Assembly: GCF_003460605.1 (NCBI RefSeq)
Contig: NZ_QTVN01000001.1
Coordinates: 248,001 to 312,000, forward strand
Direction: 5' to 3'
From: Ruminococcus sp. AF31-8BH
GTDB lineage: Bacteria; Bacillota; Clostridia; Lachnospirales; Lachnospiraceae
DNA length: 64,000 nt
Shown here: positions 30,254 to 59,726 of the stretch, in pieces
How positions within the stretch are numbered: position 1 is the stretch's first letter
Layout: every line of letters starts with the position of its first letter
The notes under the pieces: generated by a model
Database searches by the model: none
The model's input: the letters and a program-made list of their open reading frames with translations, nothing else
Told to the model about the DNA's origin: nothing
Position numbers and translations under genes: made by a program

Positions 30254-30355
30254 TGCATATTCCTCCCTCTTTATGGATAATTTATTATAAAATTTACCTG
30301 ATATATTTTGAATGGAAAAAACGTATATCTCCTATGTAGATTTTTCATATCCCCC

Positions 30356-30417
30356 ACATTAAAAAGCCCTCCCCAGCGAAAGCACATAACCTGTGCCTTT
30401 CCGCTGGAGAGGGCTTC
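30356..30417 (-). terminator. Strong intrinsic terminator after binding protein gene
   Basis: A long stem (about 22 bases per arm, with AAGCCCTC pairing with GAGGGCTT at its base and GTGC/GCAC near the loop) is followed on the minus strand by TTTTT. It lies 40-100 bases downstream of the binding protein stop at 30458 and upstream of GH78, so it should separate high importer expression from lower glycosidase expression. Confidence 0.88.
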
Positions 30418-30457
30418 TCTTTATGAAAGCAGAATTTTTAAAGCCTTATTGTTTATC

Positions 30458-32167
30458 TTATTTAACAGTTTTCTCATTCAGAGTTTCAATGATTTCATCA
30501 AAGTCTTCATCTGTCTGGCTCTTGATGTCATCAATGTAATCTTCCCATGCATCGTCATCATTAATGTCGTTCTCACCTGTGATAAACTGAAGCGCAAGCT
30601 CTTTTACTCGTGTCTCGCAGGTTCCGCCATATCCAAGCTCTGCTTTTGCAGAAGACTCTTCGGCAGTCAGATAGGTAACCGGTGCTCTGTCGTATGGGGA
30701 AACAGAATCCTCTCCGCCGTTGGCATCAGACTCAACCCAGTATTTTCCTTCATAGTAACCTTTTTCAGCATTCCACCATGGCTCCGGATTAGAAGCAACC
30801 TCAAGCATTGCGTTGAAATCAATCGGGTTAAATGGAATACCGGTTCTGCAAACGCTAGAAGAGGTAAGTCCATACTCAGCGGATTTTGTTGCAGGTGTTG
30901 CATCGTTCAGAATATCATCTACGAAAGTCTTAGTTCCATCAGCTTCTGTATAGGTTTCGCCTTCAACACCCCAGTTCATAAGGTTTACCATCTCATCAGA
31001 ATACTGATAGTCAATCATTGCTACTGCATATTCCGGATGCTCGGTTTCTGCGCTGATATAAATACCCATATTTGCATTCAGAGATTTTGCTGCCTGTCTG
31101 GAACCCCATTTCCAGGCAGTACCATACTCTGTATTCTCTGGAAGATATGCAAGACCCCATTCCATGTTGTCATCTGTCTTAGCAGCATTCCAGCTCGCTA
31201 CAGATCCAGACCAAAGTGTCGGGCAAATACCGCCAACATTTGTGGTAGCCTTTGTCTGGCCCTGATTGAAGTCTGCTGTTGCAAACTCAGGATCAATATA
31301 TCCAGCCTCATATAAGCTGTTCAGATATTTCAGGCACTCACGGAAGTTATCCTCGATCGGTCCAAATACCCATTCCTCACCATTGTAGTACAGGCAGTCC
31401 CATGTATGGAAAATTCCAACAAATCCACGGTACAGGGAATAATCTTTTGTGTTGTTGATAATAACATAATCAAGATCAAGTGATCCATCGTCAATCTTTG
31501 CCTGCATGTCAGAGCAAAGCTGTGTAAACTCATCCAGTGTAGCAGCCGGCTGCCAGCCGTTTTCCTTAAGAAGATCAAAACGATATGCAAATGCTGTGAA
31601 GGACTGTGCTCCCTGGATATCATCCGGGTTGTAGAAGCCATCCATAAAGTAATACATGGATCCGTCCTCATTCTTTGCAAAATTCTCGCCACCGTTTGTC
31701 TCTTTCATATATTCCGGATAGTAAACCATATAATCGGAATAATCAGCAAGATTTAATAAGGTTCCGTCCTCACCGTACTCATTGACAGCTGATCCCTTTG
31801 TTACAGTAGCAATATCCGGAACTGAACCGGACTGAAGTACAACCAGCTCATTTGCCTGATAGTCCGTTGCAGGTGTTCTTGTCCATGTGATATCAAGCTT
31901 GCAGCCAAGGTAATTCTCCATAGCCTCCTGCCATTTTTCCTGAACCAGTGTTCCATCAGAAGACTGCTGATAATCTGCGATGCTTACTTCCAGATGTAAG
32001 GTTCCGTCCTCAAGCTCCGGAAGCTCAATGCCATTATCTGCAGCTGTTGCTTTTGGTGCTGAATCCTCTGCCCATACAGCAGTTGTTCCCATGGTTGTGA
32101 AAAGTCCTGCAGCCATTGCTACTGACATTCCCATAGCGGTAAGTCTTTTGGTGGTTTCTCTCTTCAT
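30458..32167 (-). CDS. Extracellular sugar-binding protein (LplA-like, CUT1 importer 2)
   Basis: About 569 aa, the long-form binding protein typical of LplABC/YtcQ importers for complex oligosaccharides. A Sec-type signal (MKRETTKRLTAMGMSVAMAA) ends near VWAEDS, again without a lipobox cysteine. The start at 32167 is chosen over 32179 because GGAGG lies at good spacing. EF-hand-like acidic stretches near the C-terminus (ENDINDDDAWEDYIDDI) could bind calcium. It follows the two permease genes in one transcript. The substrate is not directly readable; the downstream GH78/GH2/GH42 enzymes point to branched plant oligosaccharides. Confidence 0.9.
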   Translation of the reverse strand: MKRETTKRLTAMGMSVAMAAGLFTTMGTTAVWAEDSAPKATAADNGIELPELEDGTLHLEVSIADYQQSSDGTLVQEKWQEAMENYLGCKLDITWTRTPATDYQANELVVLQSGSVPDIATVTKGSAVNEYGEDGTLLNLADYSDYMVYYPEYMKETNGGENFAKNEDGSMYYFMDGFYNPDDIQGAQSFTAFAYRFDLLKENGWQPAATLDEFTQLCSDMQAKIDDGSLDLDYVIINNTKDYSLYRGFVGIFHTWDCLYYNGEEWVFGPIEDNFRECLKYLNSLYEAGYIDPEFATADFNQGQTKATTNVGGICPTLWSGSVASWNAAKTDDNMEWGLAYLPENTEYGTAWKWGSRQAAKSLNANMGIYISAETEHPEYAVAMIDYQYSDEMVNLMNWGVEGETYTEADGTKTFVDDILNDATPATKSAEYGLTSSSVCRTGIPFNPIDFNAMLEVASNPEPWWNAEKGYYEGKYWVESDANGGEDSVSPYDRAPVTYLTAEESSAKAELGYGGTCETRVKELALQFITGENDINDDDAWEDYIDDIKSQTDEDFDEIIETLNEKTVK

Positions 32168-38739: not shown

Positions 38740-40176
38740 TCAATTAATTTTCAAAACATAAGCACAATCACAAGGCTTCTTTTCCGGTGCTTTTACATAA
38801 AGCCCGTCTTCTTTTCTGTAAAAAGCAAGCTCACCTTCATTTCCCAGCATAGTTACCTTCTTAATCTCACCGTCAAGAGCACCACCCTTACGAAGTGTAC
38901 GGATACGGAACTCTCCATCCTCGGGCCAGCCAAATGCAATAGCATAAAGAGCATCGCCATGTGTGGTAAAGCGGAAGTCCTGAGCAGTAAGAGTATCACT
39001 ATGCACATCAACAGCATCGCCCTTATCAAGCTGCTCCTGAATTTTTCCCACATCATAATTGGCATCATCTACTGTAGTAGGACCTTCTGCTGCCACCTTA
39101 AATGGCCTTGTCTCATAAATTGCTTCACCGTTTAAGGCCAGCCAGTCTCCGATTTCTTCCAGAATACGCACTGCATCCGGATGGAAGGAACCATCCGCAT
39201 ATGGGCCTACATTTAATAGAAGGTTTCCATTCTTGGATACAATATCGCAAAGCTGATGGATAATCCTCTCTGCTGATTTATATTTCGGATTTTGTACCAT
39301 ACACCAGGTAATATTATCCTCCAGACGGTCGTCAGACTGCCATGGGAAGTCCTTTGGGGAAGAAAATCTTCCGCACTCAATATCATAAACACCGATATCC
39401 TTAGGATAGTCCTCCTGCTTGTATGTAATGATTCCGTCCTTAATTCCTCTGGTGTTGTAATAATATTCGGCTACATCATAACGGTAATCTTCCTGGATAA
39501 TGCAGGTACGGCTGTCAAAATACACCTCATCCGGCTCATACTTGTCGATAACCTCCAACACCTTATCCCGCCAGCTTTTGCAAAATGCTTCGTCCGGATA
39601 GCGATAAGGAATATAGCGATTTGTCTCAAGAGGCAGTGCAGGACCGTAATATTTTTCGTTTTCCGGAATATACACATCCGCCTCATTATCCGTTGACATA
39701 AACCATCCCCACAGCCACTGATGGTGAAAGGTTGCCACTGTACGAATTCCCTGCTTGCGAAAGGCCTCTGTGCATTCTCCCACAATATCACGGTGAGGAC
39801 CATAATTCATACTATTAATTGGATTAACTGCGCTGTCCCACATGGAAAAATTATCTGCATGCTCACTAACTGCACCGGCATATTTTGCACCGGAACGCTT
39901 TACAAGAGAAGCCCACTGATCCGGATCAAATTTTTCTCCTTTGAGCATATCATAAAAGTCCTTATAGCCAAAGTCATGAAGACTTCCATAGGTTTTCTCA
40001 TGGTACTGGTTCTGCTCTAAGCCTTTGCAGTACATATTTCTGGAATACCACTCGTTTTGATATGCCGGAACGCTATATGGTCCCCAGTGAAAAAATAATC
40101 CAAACTTTGCATCTCGAAACCACTTTGGTGCTTCTCTTTTTACATTGTTCCAATTGACTTCTCTCATGTTTTCCAA
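38740..40176 (-). CDS. GH29 alpha-L-fucosidase
   Basis: 478 aa TIM-barrel fucosidase. Family features: WFRDAKFGLFFHWGPYSVPAY at the start, GAKYAGAVSEHADNFSMWDS, and the nucleophile Asp221 in EVYFDSRTC. NGNLLLNVGPYADGSFHP marks the barrel end, and a small C-terminal beta domain follows. No signal peptide, so it is cytoplasmic, like the other hydrolases. It hydrolyses terminal alpha-L-fucose (GH29 also includes alpha-L-galactosidase-like activities). It follows the esterase gene after a palindromic gap of about 57 bases on the same strand. Confidence 0.92.
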   Translation of the reverse strand: MENMREVNWNNVKREAPKWFRDAKFGLFFHWGPYSVPAYQNEWYSRNMYCKGLEQNQYHEKTYGSLHDFGYKDFYDMLKGEKFDPDQWASLVKRSGAKYAGAVSEHADNFSMWDSAVNPINSMNYGPHRDIVGECTEAFRKQGIRTVATFHHQWLWGWFMSTDNEADVYIPENEKYYGPALPLETNRYIPYRYPDEAFCKSWRDKVLEVIDKYEPDEVYFDSRTCIIQEDYRYDVAEYYYNTRGIKDGIITYKQEDYPKDIGVYDIECGRFSSPKDFPWQSDDRLEDNITWCMVQNPKYKSAERIIHQLCDIVSKNGNLLLNVGPYADGSFHPDAVRILEEIGDWLALNGEAIYETRPFKVAAEGPTTVDDANYDVGKIQEQLDKGDAVDVHSDTLTAQDFRFTTHGDALYAIAFGWPEDGEFRIRTLRKGGALDGEIKKVTMLGNEGELAFYRKEDGLYVKAPEKKPCDCAYVLKIN

Positions 40177-40233: not shown

Positions 40234-41664
40234 TTATAATTTTATTGATTTCTTATAGAAAGACAGAAGCGGCAAAAAGGTCACTTCGTCCACTGGTGGC
40301 TGTTTAATCGGATCTGCCTGCCATACAAAGGAAAGCTCTGCTTCATCCTCCACTTCTCGGGCTAATTCCAGATAAAGATGATTTTTGTTCTCTCTGTTTC
40401 CGCGAATGTGAAGGATCTCCACCTCACCCTGACTGTCTGTCAAAGTAAACCCGCTGTCTTTTCCCTCTGCTGAGTAAACCAGGAAACAATTCTTAACATG
40501 ATCGCAGGTAAGCTTCAGCCAGATTCCGCTTCCCTCCAGCTGAAAGCTCTTTTTTTCCGCTTCGTCTGCTCTCTCAACCTTTACAAGCTCAGGCGGCTGA
40601 TACTCTTCCTTTCCATTTAACACATGGGCACATTGCTTCGCCAGCTTTTCTCCAAGCGCTACATTAGCCTGTGCTGTATTATGAATTCCATCGCAAAGGC
40701 TTAAATTGGAAGTTGTCAAAACAGAAACTCCCGGAATCTCCTTCGCAGCTCTTGCCTGGGCATCACGCACCATTCCCCAGCACTCGTCATTGATTCCATT
40801 GATCTGTCTGTTCAGCTGCATGGTAAAAAATGGGATCTCATATCCCAGTTCTTTTCTGGTTGCTTCCACGTACTCTCTAAAATGCTCCAGATATTTTTCT
40901 GCCGGTCCCGGATTGGTATCTGAGCAGCCCTGATACCAAAGCACTCCTGCATATCTTCCCCCGGTCTCATGAATCTTATCCACCATATTTAAGTACAAAT
41001 CTCCGTCCTTTGGATTCCATCTTTCCATAGGAGAACCGCCAAGAGAAGTCTGAATCAATCCCACAGGCATTCCTGTCATTTTCCCATAAGTCTTTCCAAA
41101 CGCAAGATAAGGAGATACCCCCGGCACACCCATCTCTTCGTTGGCTAGCGATCCGGCAAAAGTACTTTCATTCATAGGATGGCTTGCAATATCCCACTTG
41201 CTTCTGTTACGATACAAATGCACATCCATGCTAGGTGGATCAATGCAAAAATCCCTGCTGTATCCCGCTGAATTAGATTGACCTGCAATAATAAACAGGT
41301 TTCCTACTCCCAGATGGAGCACACAGTCTCCACGATAGAGCCATGTGAGATCCGGAACAGTGCTCTTTGTTTCCAGGCTGGTATCAATCCTGTAAGGTCC
41401 TCCGGCCGGAATCTCCAGCGTCACCTCAAATTCTCCCTGAAACTTCTCATTACATGTGAAATGATCTGCATTTGTCCAGGGAATTACCGTCATATTGTCA
41501 TCCTCACTCATAACCCTCACAACCGGAGTAACCCTTTCAACCCCCACTTCAATTGCTGCCGGATGAACCTGAAAGTTTCCCTTTAAAGCCACAGTTGCCT
41601 TACCATTCTCCTGCTGCAAAATTTCCCAATCTGCCGGAGCCTTCGTTAACGTAATTCCATGCAT
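40234..41664 (-). CDS. SGNH carbohydrate acetylesterase (sialate O-acetylesterase-like)
   Basis: 476 aa cytoplasmic SGNH hydrolase. The nucleophile serine lies in FIIAGQSNSAGYSRD (about residue 136), the glycine block in QTSLGGSPMERW, and the C-terminal catalytic Asp/His in SLCDGIHNTAQANVALG. N- and C-terminal beta domains flank the core. Relatives remove O-acetyl groups from sialic acid or from plant glycans; without sialic-acid genes nearby, de-acetylation of imported pectic or xylan-type fragments is the better guess. The start at 41664 (MHGITLTKAP) is preferred to 41691 for its ribosome binding site. A -10-like TATAAT lies at 41766-41771 upstream. Confidence 0.85.
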   Translation of the reverse strand: MHGITLTKAPADWEILQQENGKATVALKGNFQVHPAAIEVGVERVTPVVRVMSEDDNMTVIPWTNADHFTCNEKFQGEFEVTLEIPAGGPYRIDTSLETKSTVPDLTWLYRGDCVLHLGVGNLFIIAGQSNSAGYSRDFCIDPPSMDVHLYRNRSKWDIASHPMNESTFAGSLANEEMGVPGVSPYLAFGKTYGKMTGMPVGLIQTSLGGSPMERWNPKDGDLYLNMVDKIHETGGRYAGVLWYQGCSDTNPGPAEKYLEHFREYVEATRKELGYEIPFFTMQLNRQINGINDECWGMVRDAQARAAKEIPGVSVLTTSNLSLCDGIHNTAQANVALGEKLAKQCAHVLNGKEEYQPPELVKVERADEAEKKSFQLEGSGIWLKLTCDHVKNCFLVYSAEGKDSGFTLTDSQGEVEILHIRGNRENKNHLYLELAREVEDEAELSFVWQADPIKQPPVDEVTFLPLLSFYKKSIKL

Positions 41665-41986
41665 TTTATTACCCTCTCTTTCTGGCTGCATAATCTATTT
41701 AAACACATACACTGCTTACTTTAATACCTGACCAAAGCACAAATTCCATGCTCGTCTTATTTTTCATTATAAAGTCTTTTCAAATTCATTGGTATATTCA
41801 TTTTTCAGACCATTATGTAAATTTTTCAGATATATGAAACTGCCTGCACCTCTTACAAGTAGTCTTGAACCAGGATTTTATGAATATAGGACAAGCCCCA
41901 TGAACACTGTCCTGACCTTTTATAGGCCAGCTTGTTCATGGGGCTTGCATATAGGAGACGGACTAAACCATCTTAAATACAAATTG
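41665..41986. other. 322-base intergenic region with a 15-bp perfect inverted repeat
   Basis: No gene is seen. It holds a TATAAT -10 candidate for the esterase gene (41766-41771, minus strand, no clear -35) and the inverted repeat described separately at 41884-41956. The rest is A/T-rich without obvious structure. Confidence 0.6.
41884..41956. repeat. Perfect 15-bp inverted repeat flanked by 8-bp direct repeats
   Basis: CAAGCCCCATGAACA (41892-41906) and its exact complement (41933-41947) enclose 26 bases, and ATATAGGA occurs directly on both sides (41884-41891 and 41949-41956). It lies 30-100 bases downstream of the FGGY kinase gene. It could be a terminator, but neither strand has a U-tract; the flanking direct repeats look like a target duplication around a miniature element. 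Confidence 0.6.
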
Positions 41987-43462
41987 TTATTTGTTTGTAA
42001 TCACGGAAGCCACAGCCTTCTTCCATCCGGCATACTTCTGTGCCCGTTTCTTTGCATCCATATCCGGCTTATAAGAAACCCGGTTCAATTTTCCGAAGAT
42101 ACTGTCATCCCAGACACCAAGCTGCAATCCTGCCGCATATGCCGGTCCAATTGCAGAAAGCTCCTCTGAATCCGGAACCAGTACCCCGGCATCTGCGATA
42201 TTACTCTGAAACTGCATTAAGTAATCATTTCTGGTGGGACCGCCATCTACGCGAAGCTCCTTCACCGGAACACCTGCATCCTCGGCCATTGCCTGTACAA
42301 CATCTGTAATCTGATAAGCAATACACTCAAGTGCGGCTCTCACAAACTCGGCTTTACGGGTGGTACGGCTCATTCCTACAACAGATGCTCTTGCCTCGCT
42401 ATCCCAGTAGGGCGCACCAAGACCACTAAATGCCGGAACCAGATACAGGCTATCCTCCTGAATTGCAGCCTTCGCCAATGGACCAGTCTCCCCAGGTGAA
42501 GCAATAATCTGCAGATCATCCTTCAGCCAGGTAATAACAGCACCTGTATAATTCAGGTTGCCCTCAAGCACATAGTTCACCTTGCCGCCGATTTTCCATG
42601 CCAGAGAAGTAACAACCCCGTGTGTACTCAGAATCGGCTTCTCACCGATGTTCATCATGATAGAAGAACCGGTACCATAGGTAGACTTGATCATGCCAGG
42701 CTGCAAACATCCCTGTCCAAATAAAGATCCGTGAGAATCACCCAGTACACCGTGAATCGGAATTTTGTGAGGAAGCAATCCCTCAAAATCAGTTTCTCCA
42801 AAACAAGCATCAGAATCTGTCACCTCAGCCATATTTGCCGAATCAATACCAAACAGCTTACAGATCTCATCATCCCACTTCAGATCAAAAATATTAAACA
42901 GCTGGGTCCTGGAAGCATTGGAATAATCTGTTCTGTACTCCTTACCCTCTGTCAGCTTAAACACCAGCCAGCTGTCAATAGTACCATGACAGATTTCGTG
43001 GCGTTCTGCTGCCTCCTTTGCACCTTCTTCATTTTCCAGAAGCCATGCAATTTTAGAAGCCGGGAAATATGGAGAAAGATTCATTCCTGTTTTCTGGCGG
43101 ATCACCTCAGCCGCACCGGCAGCCTCCACACGGGCACATACATCTACTGCACGGGCACACTGCCATACAACTGCATTTCCATAAGGCTTACCTGTAATAC
43201 GGTTCCATGCAAGGGAAGTTTCACGCTGGTTGCTGATGCCAAGACCAACCACACATTCTTTTTCAACACCCTCAAGCAGTTCCCGTACAACCTCAAGTAC
43301 ATTGCTGTAAATCTCCTCCGGATCATGGGAAACCCATCCCTTCTCATTGATGATCTGCTTATGCGGACGGTCTGTGCGGCGCATAATACTGCCAGTCTCA
43401 TCGAAAAGAAGCGCCTTGGTACCCTGGGTACTCTGATCAATACTTATGATATATTTTGCCAT
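41987..43462 (-). CDS. FGGY-family carbohydrate kinase (glycerol kinase-like)
   Basis: 491 aa sugar kinase with two FGGY domains. The N-terminal phosphate loop reads SIDQSTQGTKALLFDETG, the substrate region GISNQRETSLAWNR and HGTIDSWLVFKLT, the second phosphate site GDSHGSLFGQG, and the adenosine site RVDGGPTRNDYLMQ. It resembles GlpK, but the local context (sugar isomerase and split transketolase) argues for a ketose kinase rather than glycerol kinase. The start at 43462 (MAKYIISIDQ) follows AAGAGGAT; an in-frame start at 43492 has no ribosome site. It is separated from the transketolase gene by a highly folded 105-base element at 43496-43600. Confidence 0.88.
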   Translation of the reverse strand: MAKYIISIDQSTQGTKALLFDETGSIMRRTDRPHKQIINEKGWVSHDPEEIYSNVLEVVRELLEGVEKECVVGLGISNQRETSLAWNRITGKPYGNAVVWQCARAVDVCARVEAAGAAEVIRQKTGMNLSPYFPASKIAWLLENEEGAKEAAERHEICHGTIDSWLVFKLTEGKEYRTDYSNASRTQLFNIFDLKWDDEICKLFGIDSANMAEVTDSDACFGETDFEGLLPHKIPIHGVLGDSHGSLFGQGCLQPGMIKSTYGTGSSIMMNIGEKPILSTHGVVTSLAWKIGGKVNYVLEGNLNYTGAVITWLKDDLQIIASPGETGPLAKAAIQEDSLYLVPAFSGLGAPYWDSEARASVVGMSRTTRKAEFVRAALECIAYQITDVVQAMAEDAGVPVKELRVDGGPTRNDYLMQFQSNIADAGVLVPDSEELSAIGPAYAAGLQLGVWDDSIFGKLNRVSYKPDMDAKKRAQKYAGWKKAVASVITNK

Positions 43463-43495
43463 TTTTGCTATCCTCTTTTTTCTAAAATACAACGA

Positions 43496-43600
43496 CAGGC
43501 GTGCCTGACCAGGTACCCCTGCTGTCCTCGCACCTTACGATGCATGCACAGCCTTTGGATCCCCTGGATCTGCATTTCTGCAGTCTGTCAGTCACGCCTG
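43496..43600 (-). ncRNA. Unassigned structured RNA element upstream of the FGGY kinase
   Basis: Read on the minus strand, a basal stem pairs CAGGCGTG with CACGCCTG (8 bp), continues past one A/G mismatch with CTGAC/GTCAG (5 bp), and encloses four hairpins: CTGCA-GAAA-TGCAG, GATCC-AGG-GGATC, GCTGT...ACAGC containing GCATC-GTAA-GGTGC, and CAGG-GGTA-CCTG. Two loops are GNRA tetraloops. About 70 percent of bases pair. It lies wholly within the 187-base gap between the transketolase and kinase genes and leaves the kinase ribosome site free. It matches no riboswitch class I can recall by motif. Alternatives are an mRNA-processing element or a REP/MITE-like DNA palindrome. Confidence 0.6.
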
Positions 43601-43649
43601 AGCCTGTTCATTATTTATCTGTAAAATCTTTCAAGAAAAATCCCGGCTC

Positions 43650-44582
43650 TTATTTCAGAGCTTCAACTGCCTTCTTGGCAATTCCCTCAGCATTTAATCC
43701 ATAATAATCAAATACTTCCTGTGAGGTTCCTGTGATAACCGGAGCATCCGGAAGAGCCATGTTCAGCACTTTTCTCGGGCACTCTGCACCAACAACCTGT
43801 GCAACCATAGAGCCAAGTCCGCCAAACGGTGCATGCTCCTCAACTGTGATAACAGCCTTTACATTCTTGGCAGCCTTCACAACGCCCTCAGCATCCAGAG
43901 GCTTCACGCAGTACATATCCAGTACAGTTGCGGAAATTCCCTGAGTCTCCAGTAATTTGGCAGCCTCGAAAGCCGGGCGAACCATCTCGCCGCATGCGAT
44001 GATCGCAACATCTGTTCCCTCTTTCAGAACAGTAGCCTTATCCATTTCAAACGGACAGTTATCCTCTGTATAAATATCCTCAACCGGATTTCTTCCTACG
44101 CGGATATAAGAAGGCTTCTCATCCTTTAACAGAGCCTCAACCAGATGTTTTGTCTGATGACGGTCACTTGGAAGATATACTCGCATATTTGGAATTGCAG
44201 CCATAGCAGCAATGTCCTGTGCGGAATGATGGCTCATTCCAAGCGCGCCATAGCTTACACCGCCGCTGATACCGATCAGGGTAACATTGGTGTTGGAGTA
44301 TGCAACATCAATCTTAGCCTGCTCATAGCTTCTTGTTGATAAGAAGCAAGCCGGGGAGCATGCGAAAGGTTTCTTGCCGCATTTTGCAAGACCTGCTGAA
44401 ATACTCACCAGGTTCTGCTCCGCAATACCTGTCTCAACAAACTGTTCCGGGAAATTATCTGCAAATGGTGTCATAGATGCAGAGCCTCTGGAATCACTGC
44501 AAAGCACCATAATATCCTTATCGTCTTTCGCCTTATCCATCAATACTTCACAAATTGCCTGTCTGTTTGGAATCTTATTCAT
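43650..44582 (-). CDS. Transketolase, C-terminal subunit
   Basis: 310 aa. It carries the pyrimidine-binding and C-terminal domains of a split transketolase: RQAICEVLMDKAKDDKDI, FVETGIAEQNLVSISAGLA with the Glu that activates thiamine diphosphate, and VEEHAPFGGLGSMVAQV. It works as a heterotetramer with the N-terminal subunit encoded directly upstream with an 8-base overlap. The start at 44582 follows AGGAGG; the longer reading from 44630 has none. It transfers two-carbon units between ketose and aldose phosphates. The neighbours suggest it acts on the phosphorylated product of the adjacent isomerase/kinase. Confidence 0.93.
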   Translation of the reverse strand: MNKIPNRQAICEVLMDKAKDDKDIMVLCSDSRGSASMTPFADNFPEQFVETGIAEQNLVSISAGLAKCGKKPFACSPACFLSTRSYEQAKIDVAYSNTNVTLIGISGGVSYGALGMSHHSAQDIAAMAAIPNMRVYLPSDRHQTKHLVEALLKDEKPSYIRVGRNPVEDIYTEDNCPFEMDKATVLKEGTDVAIIACGEMVRPAFEAAKLLETQGISATVLDMYCVKPLDAEGVVKAAKNVKAVITVEEHAPFGGLGSMVAQVVGAECPRKVLNMALPDAPVITGTSQEVFDYYGLNAEGIAKKAVEALK

Positions 44583-45408
44583 GAAGAGCTGCCTCCTTTC
44601 TTGCTGCAAAATCCGCAATGATCTGATCATATTCTTCCTGGGTCGGAACCTTGTGATGCCAGTTTGCTTTGTTTTCCATTACAGAAGATCCACAGCCCTT
44701 TACAGTATTGGCGATCACTGCCGTTGGTTTTCCTTTTACTGTTTTTGCTTCCTCAAAAGCCGCATTTAACTGGTCAATATCATTTCCGTCTTTTACATCA
44801 ATTACATGCCATCCAAAGGAACGGATACGTTCATGAAGATCGTCATGTCCCATAACATCCTCTGTATTTCCGGAAATCTGAAGACGGTTACGGTCGATTA
44901 CTGCGCAAAGGTTGTCCAGCTTGTACTGATGTCCTGCCATGAAGCCTTCCCATACAGAGCCTTCAGCTAACTCACCGTCACCCATTACTGTATAAACACG
45001 GTAATCTCTGTTGTCCTTTTTGCCTGCAAGAGCCATGCCCACACAAACCGGAAGTCCATGTCCGAGAGATCCGGAATTCATTTCGATTCCAGGAAGCTTA
45101 TTGTTCGGATGTCCGATATATTTAGAACCAAATTTAGAGAAGTTTGCTTTGATATCATCCAGATCCAGAAATCCTCTTGCTGCAAGTACTGCATAATATG
45201 CTTCTACAGAATGACCCTTGCTGAGTACAAAGCGATCGCGATCCGGATCATCAAGCCTTTCCGGAGAAACATTCATCTGGCAGAAATACAGGCTGATCAG
45301 AGTATCGATCACGCTCATATCACCACCGATATGACCGCCCTTTCCGGCAACGATAATGTCTACAGTATCTTTTCTTAAATCAAAAGATTTTGCCTTTAAA
45401 TTTTCCAT
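44575..45408 (-). CDS. Transketolase, N-terminal subunit
   Basis: 277 aa. It holds the thiamine diphosphate/magnesium domain: GHIGGDMSVIDTL, SKGHSVEAYYA, GSLGHGLPVCVGMA, and the metal motif GDGELAEGSVWE followed by DRNRLQISG. It is one half of the split enzyme. Translation is coupled to the isomerase gene: an ATG overlaps the upstream TGA (45411-45414), but the ATG at 45408 has better spacing from AGAGGTG. Split transketolases are common in Clostridia, so the split alone is not diagnostic of a special substrate. Confidence 0.93.
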   Translation of the reverse strand: MENLKAKSFDLRKDTVDIIVAGKGGHIGGDMSVIDTLISLYFCQMNVSPERLDDPDRDRFVLSKGHSVEAYYAVLAARGFLDLDDIKANFSKFGSKYIGHPNNKLPGIEMNSGSLGHGLPVCVGMALAGKKDNRDYRVYTVMGDGELAEGSVWEGFMAGHQYKLDNLCAVIDRNRLQISGNTEDVMGHDDLHERIRSFGWHVIDVKDGNDIDQLNAAFEEAKTVKGKPTAVIANTVKGCGSSVMENKANWHHKVPTQEEYDQIIADFAARKEAALHE

Positions 45409-45410
45409 TC

Positions 45411-46811
45411 TCATTCACCTCTTAAATATGCTTTCACATCTTCTTCAATAGGATCATATAAATCAGGAGTGATGCCCATATATTTGCATGCCTCGTAAAG
45501 TACCGGAACTACATCCTTGTGGATACCTACACAGTGATGGATATATGGACCCTCTACGATCTTAGCTTCCAGACGTTTGATATTCTCTACCTCAACCCAC
45601 AGGTAAGTTCCCATTCCTTTCGGTCCATCAACACCTTTGGCTTTTCCAAGAAGCATGGAGTATTCTCCGTTATCACCATCAAAACGTGCCAAAGTAACTT
45701 CCCCATGTTTTGCTTCTGCTGTAATGCTTCCCGGATGGCTGAATGCCAACGGATAAGTAAGCTTCGGTGTTTCTCTTGCAACAGAAATCGGCCATGGTCC
45801 GCAATGCTGAAGAAGCTCGCCGTTCTCAATATCAGGATGACGGATAGTCCAGTCTGCGAAGAAGCTTCTTGTGTCATCAAGTGCTGCTGCCTCAACAAGA
45901 AGAGCTGTAATTGCACCATGAATATCGGTCTCACATACAACCGGAATTCCCTCTTCGTTCAAAAGAGCATTTGCTGCACATGGCATAATTCCGATTTCAC
46001 TCTGCAGCTGGTTCCAGCACTGGATTGCAGCTGCCTGGCAGCCATATTTCTTAATGAGATTTCCCATCGCAACCTTAAGGGCAGCTACGTTCTCAAGCTC
46101 GTTGTCTTTTACACAGATTTCCATGTTTGCACGGCAATACTCAACAACCTTTGCGACCTCAGTTCCCTCTGCTTTTGCTTTCTTCATCTCATCTGTAAGC
46201 TCAGGCATTGGGATAGGGGTCAGCTGAATGTTGAATTTCTCAAGAAGCTCACCCTCGTTGCACATGGTAGACCAGAACTCGTATGGTCTTGTTGAAATCT
46301 GAAGAATTCTCATGTTGCGGAAGGTTTTTACTACATTACAGACAGCCATGAAATCGCGAAGGCCTCTCTCGAATACAGGATCGTTCAGTCTGCAGTTTGT
46401 CATATAAGTAAATGGAACACGGAATCTTCTAAGTACTTTACCTGTTGCAAAAAGTCCGCACTGGGTGTCACGAAGGCGAACGCCGTTCTCATCTGGTCTT
46501 TCATCAAGAGGTCCCCACAGAAGAACCGGTACGTTTAATTCCTTTGCAAGTCTTGCACACTCGAACTCAGTTCCGAAATTGCAATGAGGAAGGAAAAGTC
46601 CGTCGATTTTTTCTTTTTTGAATTTCTCTGCAATTTTGATGCGGCCCGCTTCGTCATAAAGAAGACCTTCTTCATTTACATCTGTGATATCTACAAAATC
46701 AATTCCTAACTCTCTTAATCTGTCTGCAGTAAGTCCACGATACTTAACTGCGTCCGGTGCGCTGAAAATGCTTCTTCTGGTTGGCGCGTAACCAATTTTA
46801 ATGTTTGCCAT
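45411..46811 (-). CDS. L-fucose/L-arabinose isomerase-like protein
   Basis: 466 aa, FucI/AraA superfamily. The N-terminal Rossmann-like domain (IKIGYAPTRRSIFS, FLPHCNFGTEFE), the substrate domain, and the metal-binding acid in VVCETDIHGAIT (about residue 305) are visible, with the C-terminal HHCVGIHKD His block. Members of this superfamily interconvert aldoses and ketoses, but several, like this one, diverge from FucI and AraA, so the sugar is open. The start at 46811 (MANIKIGYAP) follows AGGAGG at 9 bases; 46820 is too close to the site. It is first in the operon with transketolase and kinase genes. Confidence 0.85.
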   Translation of the reverse strand: MANIKIGYAPTRRSIFSAPDAVKYRGLTADRLRELGIDFVDITDVNEEGLLYDEAGRIKIAEKFKKEKIDGLFLPHCNFGTEFECARLAKELNVPVLLWGPLDERPDENGVRLRDTQCGLFATGKVLRRFRVPFTYMTNCRLNDPVFERGLRDFMAVCNVVKTFRNMRILQISTRPYEFWSTMCNEGELLEKFNIQLTPIPMPELTDEMKKAKAEGTEVAKVVEYCRANMEICVKDNELENVAALKVAMGNLIKKYGCQAAAIQCWNQLQSEIGIMPCAANALLNEEGIPVVCETDIHGAITALLVEAAALDDTRSFFADWTIRHPDIENGELLQHCGPWPISVARETPKLTYPLAFSHPGSITAEAKHGEVTLARFDGDNGEYSMLLGKAKGVDGPKGMGTYLWVEVENIKRLEAKIVEGPYIHHCVGIHKDVVPVLYEACKYMGITPDLYDPIEEDVKAYLRGE

Positions 46812-47153
46812 TTTTTGCATTCCTCCTTGTGATTTTAAGTTTTTGTATGTACATTTTGTTTGTCCGATTTCAGGAAAGCTCTAATTGTCTCACAACTTTT
46901 GCTATTTCTTCATATCGTCTTTGCTTTTCCTTATGGCTCTAGTATAGGTCTCTTTCAACTTTATTCCAATAAAAAATAAAGTGTTTTCAACTTTATTTTT
47001 ACTTTATTTCTTGCAAATATATTGTTTATTTTTCATTTAAGAAGTACAATATATACAACATAGAAAACTTCTGCCTGGAAAATCTAAACATTTTCCACAG
47101 AAATCACTTTAAACTGGCAAAATCACTGTAACTTTATCCGGGAGGTGCCGCAA
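46812..47153. promoter_or_regulatory. Divergent promoter region of isomerase operon and lacI-type gene, with repeated operators
   Basis: Minus-strand promoter: -35 TTGGAA (46964-46969) and -10 TATACT (46941-46946), 17-base spacer. Plus-strand promoter: -35 TTGTTT (47022-47027) and -10 TACAAT (47045-47050), 17-base spacer. Between and over the minus -35 lie four half-sites: ACTTTATT at 46958-46965, 46990-46997 and 47001-47008, and its complement AATAAAGT at 46975-46982. They form inverted pairs suited to a dimeric or tetrameric repressor, probably the adjacent LacI protein. No gene is seen in this gap. Confidence 0.65.
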
Positions 47154-48161
47154 ATGTCCATTACTGCCAAACAACTGGCTGAAAAACTGAATCTTTCACA
47201 GACTGCTGTCTCCATGGCACTGAACAATAAGCCTGGCGTCAGCACCGAAACCCGCCGCATGGTAGTAGAAGCCGCAGAGAAATACGGCTATGACTTTACC
47301 AGGCTTTCTTTAAAGAAAAATAAAGTCGGAAGCATCTATGCAGTCAGCTACCGTTCCCATAATGCCATCATGTCCTATTCCCCTATTTTTGACGCAATGG
47401 TTGAGGGCATGGAGTCCATGGTGCAAAAAGGCAACTACAAGCTGAAGGTCATCACCTTCTATGAGAAAAGGGACAACCTGGAGCATTATCTGGAAGATCT
47501 TCGAACTACAGATTGTGTGGGGATCATTTTATTTGGTACAGAAATGCGTGAAGAAATGGTTCGACCGTTTTTAAAGCTTCCTTTCCCGGTAGTAATTCTG
47601 GATGCTTACTTTGAAAATCTGAACTGCAATTATGTAGTCCCAAACAACCGCCAGGGAGCGTACCTGGCCACAGATTACCTGATCAGCCGCAGAATGAAAC
47701 AGCCTGGATATCTGCAGTCTGCATATCCTCTTCGTAACTTTTCTGAAAGACTTGAGGGCTTTTATCATGCAGTCCATGCCAATGGAATGTCTCGTTCCCG
47801 CTGCATTATCCACCAGCTTTCCCCGTCTATTGATGGTGCAATGGCAGACATGCTGGCTGTGATCGACCGCGGCGATGCCCTGGCAGACTGCTATTTCGCA
47901 GATAATGACCTGATTGCAATCGGCACCATCAAGGCTCTGCGCCTGCGGGGCTACAAGATTCCGGAACAAATTGCAGTAGTTGGCTTTGACAATGTTTCCG
48001 AAGGACGCATTATTGATCCTGCGCTTACTACCATCAGCGTCCCCAGGCATTATATGGGACAGGTTGCGGCCAGAGAATTGCTCTCCCAAATTGAAGAGCC
48101 AAGACAGCACACCTGCAAAATCGAGGTTTCTGCAAATCTGGTTAAACGATTTTCGGTATAA
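47154..48161 (+). CDS. LacI-family transcriptional regulator
   Basis: 335 aa. The N-terminal HTH (MSITAKQLAEKLNLSQTAVS) and hinge (EKYGYDFTRLS) are followed by a periplasmic-binding-protein-like effector domain (about 60-335) with a typical VGFDNVSEGRIIDPALTTI end. The ATG at 47154 is chosen because GGGAGG lies 8 bases upstream; a GTG at 47145 overlaps it. It is divergent from the isomerase/transketolase/kinase operon and likely represses that operon and itself until the sugar or sugar phosphate is present. Confidence 0.93.
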   Translation: MSITAKQLAEKLNLSQTAVSMALNNKPGVSTETRRMVVEAAEKYGYDFTRLSLKKNKVGSIYAVSYRSHNAIMSYSPIFDAMVEGMESMVQKGNYKLKVITFYEKRDNLEHYLEDLRTTDCVGIILFGTEMREEMVRPFLKLPFPVVILDAYFENLNCNYVVPNNRQGAYLATDYLISRRMKQPGYLQSAYPLRNFSERLEGFYHAVHANGMSRSRCIIHQLSPSIDGAMADMLAVIDRGDALADCYFADNDLIAIGTIKALRLRGYKIPEQIAVVGFDNVSEGRIIDPALTTISVPRHYMGQVAARELLSQIEEPRQHTCKIEVSANLVKRFSV

Positions 48162-59550: not shown

Positions 59551-59726
59551 TTCAGTTCGCTCCTTATTCATACAAAATCATCAATCTACAATTCTGTACT
59601 CGTAAAGGAAAGGGAAATCACCTTTGCAAGCCTTTTGCCGAGAGTTCCGATGAATGTCTGCACATTCCCCGGCTTTGCTGATCTAAAGCCAACTGATATG
59701 AATTGTGCTGTAAGCACACAATCACA

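Follow-up and report, generated by a model that had tools for sequence, protein, structure and literature searches.

A structured intercistronic RNA ahead of an FGGY kinase gene in Ruminococcus sp. AF31-8BH and its counterpart in the Blautia group

The question raised by this locus is what fills the gap between a transketolase gene and an FGGY kinase gene that stand in one operon-like series on the minus strand (isomerase, transketolase N, transketolase C, FGGY kinase, SASA esterase, alpha-L-fucosidase), and what it could mean for the expression of the kinase. The window referred to throughout is the whole analysed stretch of DNA from Ruminococcus sp. AF31-8BH, 64,000 nucleotides in length. 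A sequence-only reading of the window had described in this gap a 13-bp basal stem with one A/G mismatch enclosing four hairpins, two of them capped by GNRA tetraloops, and had proposed a cis-regulatory RNA of no known class, with a REP/MITE palindrome as the alternative. The 187 nt that part the kinase ATG from the transketolase stop, the mismatched basal stem and, by inspection, the ribosome site of the kinase just outside that stem are all present as it had described them (Table 1).

Table 1. Genes and RNA features around the transketolase C/kinase junction, in window coordinates
Feature	Positions	Strand	Basis or remark
alpha-L-fucosidase	38740-40176	-	
SASA esterase	40234-41691	-	
Second stem-loop, 16-bp stem, kinase/SASA esterase gap	41891-41948	-	Gap fold z -4.3
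FGGY kinase, GlpK-like, 491 aa	41987-43462	-	Profile scores; Pfam FGGY_N and FGGY_C
Gap, transketolase C stop to kinase ATG (43462)	43463-43649	-	187 nt
Kinase Shine-Dalgarno AGAGGA	about 43471-43476	-	By inspection; outside basal stem
RNA element, three-way junction (P1 with P1b, P2, P3)	43496-43600	- (sense)	MFE -56.6 kcal/mol
Outer helix P0: ACAG 43604-43607 with UUGU 43489-43492	43489-43607	-	MFE
Basal stem 5' arm: P1 43593-43600, mismatch A43592, P1b 43587-43591	43587-43600	-	Inverted repeat I2
Hairpin P2, CUGCA-GAAA-UGCAG	43570-43583	-	Stem the same in L001, loop AUAAA there
Junction strand J2/3, AUC	43567-43569	-	UCC common with L001 extends to 43566
Arm P3, GUAA terminal loop 43535-43538	43510-43566	-	Long helix in window and L001
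Basal stem 3' arm, mismatch G43504	43496-43509	-	Inverted repeat I2
Transketolase C-subunit	43650-44597	-	Transket_pyr and Transketolase_C
Transketolase N-subunit	44575-45414	-	Domain match
Probable sugar isomerase	45411-46820	-	Weak SftI / Fucose_iso_C similarity
LacI-family regulator, divergent	47145-48161	+	Domain match

The operon and its parted junction

The kinase scored 584.9 bits against NF000756, exceeding the cut-off of 498, and 571.7 bits against the GlpK equivalog TIGR01311, under the cut-off of 590.35, and the weak similarities of the isomerase to the sulfoquinovose isomerase SftI and to Fucose_iso_C both fall under the curated cut-offs. The combination of isomerase, GlpK-like kinase and split transketolase presumably resembles the D-apiose pathway (Carter et al. 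2018). A literature search on this link gave nothing useful, and the pathway identity is therefore not claimed.

Using the kinase as query, the best 80 of 359 related loci in species genomes were collected and their gene order was compared with that of the window. In 60 of the 80, the gene immediately 5' of the kinase is transketolase C; the gap is at most 13 nt in 40 of these, 14-39 nt in one and at least 40 nt in 19, the last group including L001 (JAQXQS010000005.1), a locus of the Clostridia MAG SUG1437 from the Blautia group (genome G001). Among kinases in this gene order, those next in similarity (L007, L008, L011-L014; 74-76% identity) are parted from transketolase C by 1-3 nt, and to judge from these distances the separation of the genes appears to be derived in the lineage of the window.

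Stable folds are frequent among the longer gaps. A fold z below -3 was found in 13 of the 18 long-gap loci other than L001 against 60 of 178 control same-strand gaps (Fisher p 0.002), and in 11 of 16 (p 0.012) when L030 and L035, near-duplicates of L017 and L033, were left out; this comparison was made post hoc, with curated starts for the junction and crude gene calls for the control, and crude calls on both sides gave no clear difference (4/9 vs 62/183, or 6/14 vs 60/178). Read with these limits, the counts suggest, short of proof, a preference for a stable hairpin at the point where the transketolase C and kinase genes part. In L017, L030, L031, L038 and L063 the transketolase C/kinase gap is occupied by unrelated, strongly folding inserts of 111-342 nt.

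The gap on the other side of the kinase, towards the SASA esterase gene, also holds a stem-loop, which has no U tract directly 3' of it and is present with a few changes in L072 (JAQXQS010000175.1), a locus of the same MAG as L001. With this very stable stem-loop 3' of the kinase gene, the kinase message would have a structure of this sort on either side.

A branched fold on the sense strand

In its minimum free energy structure, at -56.6 kcal/mol, the element forms a three-way junction and has two hairpin loops. Forcing the GAUCC/GGAUC hairpin, and with it the four-hairpin fold, gave -52.1, that is 4.5 kcal/mol worse, and four hairpins were accordingly rejected as the ground state; by inspection, L001 is devoid of the complementarity for that hairpin. 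The basal arms are 14 nt each and 93% complementary, comprising 13 pairs and the A/G mismatch, and in the window copy they surround a 77-nt branched loop. The outer helix is predicted in L001 too. Both GNRA loops of the original description occur in the fold (GAAA and GUAA), but the GAAA loop of P2 is AUAAA in L001 and the GNRA loop is therefore not conserved.

The minus strand of 43480-43620 (141 nt) folds at -60.9 kcal/mol with a z of -6.0, and none of 200 dinucleotide shuffles was as low, while the plus strand of the element region reached a z of -3.2 with 1 of 200 shuffles as low. Sense against antisense, the fold energies are -56.7 vs -41.7 kcal/mol in the window and -46.5 vs -39.8 kcal/mol in L001, for which the corresponding z values are -6.3 on the sense strand and -5.1 on the opposite one. 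The element ranks third by z among 192 strand-segments taken from the ORF-free gaps of the window, of which 10 had a z below -4; the fold is therefore strong, yet stable folds are not rare in the window. Taken together, the element is a real structured RNA on the sense strand. Elsewhere in the window, a very stable hairpin at 30334-30443 (z -8.15 for 30300-30480, minus strand), which the segment scan showed to be strong on either strand, resembles a bidirectional terminator.

Comparison with Rfam 15 gave no match near the element at gathering scores and none in 43400-43700 up to an E-value of 10, ribozymes included. A catalogued RNA family was rejected on this ground, and the statement that the element belongs to no known class is borne out. 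The sole gathering-score match in the window is an HTH-XRE RNA at 59608-59683 (minus strand, 93.1 bits). The compact branched fold and its conserved core would suit a self-cleaving ribozyme or an independent small RNA; such a reading is, however, very improbable in view of the empty Rfam comparison and of the promoter scan, in which no sigma-70-like promoter was found in 43300-43800.

Conservation in a second species and copy number

L001 is the only one of the best 80 of 359 loci with the element at the same transketolase C/kinase junction, and the genus sample of its MAG includes genomes of Blautia caecimuris and Blautia sp. Marseille-P3087. The element is thus conserved at the same site in a second species. 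Identity between the window and L001 over the whole element amounts to 73 of 106 columns (73/100 ungapped), the longest identical run being 19. The identity at fourfold-degenerate sites, against which these figures were judged, is 116/225 (0.516) for the kinase, 87/142 (0.613) for transketolase C, 77/117 for transketolase N and 150/200 (0.75) for the isomerase. Whole-element identity exceeds the kinase rate (p 1e-5 to 2e-4), gives p 0.07 over all columns and 0.01 ungapped against the transketolase C rate and has no excess over the isomerase rate; an identical run of 19 arose in 3, 63 and 1807 of 20000 simulations at 0.516, 0.613 and 0.75, respectively. The core blocks are identical at 52 of 57 positions, with a binomial p of 4e-7 at 0.613 that is too good because the blocks were picked after the alignment had been viewed. 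Most of the conservation lies in the core blocks; over the element as a whole it is moderate. The sequence from the transketolase stop to the element aligns poorly (2, 10 and 8 of 30 in three comparison windows), and the stretch GGATAGCAAAAATGG near the Shine-Dalgarno and start of the kinase is identical in L001. Further upstream in the operon, the intergenic region between the LacI-family and isomerase genes (46821-47144) contains 144 nt at 87% identity with L001 and is probably the promoter and operator.

Stems P1b and P2 have no change between the two species, and the sequence of P3 is mostly different in L001 and still paired as a long helix. Folded alone against mononucleotide shuffles, P3 has a z of -4.6 in the window and -5.2 in L001, with 0 of 2000 shuffles as low in each case. 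A fixed junction and fixed stems combined with a free outer arm suggest that the core sequence is recognised as well as the shape. RNAalifold on the two sequences gave 29 consensus pairs, 2 of them changed on both sides; pair 15/116 of alignment A1, in the basal stem, and pair 9/120, in P0, are each G-C in the window and A-U in L001. With two sequences this covariation support is thin, and the shuffle control (a), in which 263 of 500 shuffles reached the observed value, carries no information at that sample size.

The MAG has two kinase copies, the one at L001 being complete and 93% identical to that of the window, and the one at L072 being cut by the contig end and 96% identical over 269 residues; the SASA esterase and fucosidase genes of L072 are 98-99% identical to those of the window. 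The pair could reflect a strain mixture or a second operon, and the missing 5' part of the L072 locus might hold a third copy of the element.

The proposal that a REP, MITE or other mobile palindrome had landed between transketolase C and the kinase draws on the palindromic inserts of other species at this junction, one of which (L038) is multi-copy. The element itself behaves otherwise. Covariance model R1 found one copy in G001 up to E 10, and BLAST of G001 gave no second copy, the best of its 6 other matches having an E-value of 0.69; the 64-kb window is likewise without a second copy (next best 22 nt, E 0.07), and plasmid and phage records gave no match to the element. As a positive control, the L038 insert (L038:548-817) returned 13 matches including itself in its own genome, G841. 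The single copy in the MAG of L001 argues against REP/MITE, with the proviso that MAG assemblies can lose identical repeats, and so do the shared site in two diverged species and the better folding of the sense strand in both. The element is not a dispersed repeat in G001; the palindrome reading suggested at the outset was therefore set aside as the main one, and a mobile origin is improbable.

Wider searches returned few matches. Models R1 and R2 were built from the two sequences, so that the 78 bits given by R2 to the window element are by construction. No convincing copy was found with either model in the other 79 kinase loci of the best 80 of 359, the weak matches being L028 (E 2.8) and L016 (E 3.5) with R1 and L041, L026 and L067 (E 0.26-0.81) with R2. 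In 299 family genomes R1 gave three matches at E up to 0.1, namely G001 and, with E-values of 0.03 and 0.1, L203 and L204; with the limit set to 0.01 it gave one in 397 family genomes and one in 391 class genomes, both G001. Among 64 genus genomes at E up to 1, R1 matched 7 and R2 matched 3, all except G001 at E 0.006 or worse, and R2 at E up to 0.1 found G001 alone among 392 order genomes. The weak matches L203 (G257), L205 (G335) and L206 (G008), of which the last two are the best genus matches other than G001, fall within long same-strand reading frames and were discounted as chance; further weak matches are L204, L207 and L208, each viewed as an alignment, and L209, L210, L232 and L233. 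In viral contigs a 15-base pattern occurred in at least 120 stretches (L082-L201), a 16-base pattern in 11 (L211-L221) and a longer gapped pattern in none, and none of the 131 viral-contig loci among the matches listed matched R1 at E up to 1. Since the samples have genomes in common (299 and 397 for the family, 64 twice for the genus, 391 for the class and 392 for the order), Infernal filters were stricter above 40 genomes and the models derive from two sequences, the rarity of the element holds among these genome samples.

Proposed ratio control, possible ligand sensing and known intercistronic structures

The reading that we put forward, tentatively and at a little short of an even chance, is that of a lineage-specific intercistronic mRNA element which uncouples the kinase from the transketolase and determines the ratio between the two. 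One operon mRNA would carry isomerase, transketolase N, transketolase C and kinase, in which the element parts genes that touch in most related loci, and translational coupling of the kinase to the transketolase would be lost. The very stable structure may then protect processed transcript ends or cause partial termination, either of which could fix the kinase to transketolase ratio, and the conserved junction probably has a specific binding partner, be it a nuclease, another protein or a metabolite. The stable, unrelated hairpins that several other species have at this junction agree with an ordinary stabiliser or attenuator between cistrons no less well than with a riboswitch. Where the two genes are parted, a stable hairpin is often present and is in most cases unrelated, as if control of the ratio had evolved more than once.

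Besides the thin covariation and the post hoc figures for core blocks and hairpins, two observations count against ratio control. The unchanged P1b and P2 are more than a pure stabiliser needs, and the two copies disagree under a published tail rule. Counted by eye in the first 8 nt after the basal stem, the window has 4 U with a longest run of 2, and L001 has 7 U with a run of 5 (6 U and a run of 3 with a shorter L001 stem). The rule for a stabiliser of selective RNA processing and stabilisation (SRPS), as worded in the excerpted text of PMC8219983, is a U content of at most 5 and a poly(U) tail of at most 3; applied to 8-nt tails it makes the window copy a stabiliser and the L001 copy a terminator, and the 10-nt tail of the window (6/10 U) falls outside the stabiliser rule. 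An intrinsic-terminator scan of 43300-43800, which admits loops of 3-8 nt only, found none at the element and one 5-pair site at the transketolase stop (43646-43661), where 0.6 are expected by chance.

A plain stabiliser would not seem to call for so much conservation in the core blocks, and for this reason two further explanations were kept. In a riboswitch, the three-way junction would act as the aptamer, binding a metabolite of the pathway such as the substrate or product of the kinase, and would gate kinase translation or read-through. Many aptamers have a conserved junction and stems with variable arms, and here variation falls on P3 and the outer pairs, with the junction and adjoining stems almost unchanged. 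The position just 5' of one cistron, the U-rich run after the basal stem in L001 and a possible pairing of the J2/3 UCC with the Shine-Dalgarno GGA in both species (3-4 bp only, by inspection) are in keeping with it. However, no second, mutually exclusive fold was found for the element, and part of the Shine-Dalgarno is unpaired in the window whereas most of it is paired in L001; no pairing common to both was seen, and no consistent Shine-Dalgarno sequestration emerged. The element is moreover confined to two species among the samples searched, with none in the other 79 related kinase loci, and the divergent LacI-family gene would be the likelier regulator of the operon. A riboswitch is thus plausible and rather unlikely. 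The bolder form, an orphan class of riboswitch or regulatory RNA restricted to a small number of Blautia-group bacteria, in which the three-way-junction core would sense a metabolite of the isomerase, kinase and transketolase pathway and adjust the kinase alone, is more doubtful again. The second explanation, a site for an RNA-binding protein serving autoregulation or a dedicated regulator, would account for the conservation of the core blocks; we regard it as improbable. Of the cis-regulatory RNA envisaged by the sequence-only reading, the sense-strand structure, the conserved position and the placement for separate control of the kinase hold, and its riboswitch part stays at the level of plausibility.

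Overall, a single window, compared with one orthologue whose synonymous sites are highly diverged, sufficed to build a case for a functional RNA, and RNAs confined to very few species, as this one is among the samples searched, escape family-based discovery. Ratio control remains the preferred reading, and the element is most likely an uncatalogued and more elaborate form among the known intercistronic control structures.

Comparison with known systems sets out both likeness and difference. The purine and TPP riboswitch classes have a three-way junction, with a conserved junction and a variable arm as in the element, which differs from them in having no Rfam match up to E 10 and in being known here from a predicted fold. 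REP/MITE-like palindromes such as that of L038 share with the element the gene junction and a strong fold; the element, in contrast, is single-copy in G001, has an asymmetric branched fold and has a core conserved between species. Internal terminators for the stoichiometry of ABC transporters in cellulolytic Clostridia, as far as the excerpt of PMC9045158 describes them, also lie within the operon, and the tail of L001 is U-rich; the window copy differs in having no continuous U tract at the stem and in enclosing a 77-nt branched loop. There is likeness in placement to SRPS stem-loops, whose criterion of a stable structure with dG below -5 kcal/mol between cistrons of one operon would take in the element, at -56.6 between same-strand genes. 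According to the excerpted text of PMC4423207, intergenic stem-loops at processing sites set operon stoichiometry in C. cellulolyticum and have orthologues among related Clostridium species, and the excerpt of PMC8219983 also describes orthologous intergenic stem-loops setting operon stoichiometry in Clostridium. The SRPS stem-loops of the cip-cel operon of Clostridium (Ruminiclostridium) cellulolyticum, in that part of PMC4423207, resemble the element in standing between cistrons of a carbohydrate operon in Clostridia and in having orthologous copies in related species, whereas they are stem-loops at mapped processing sites and the element is a predicted branched fold with a conserved junction.
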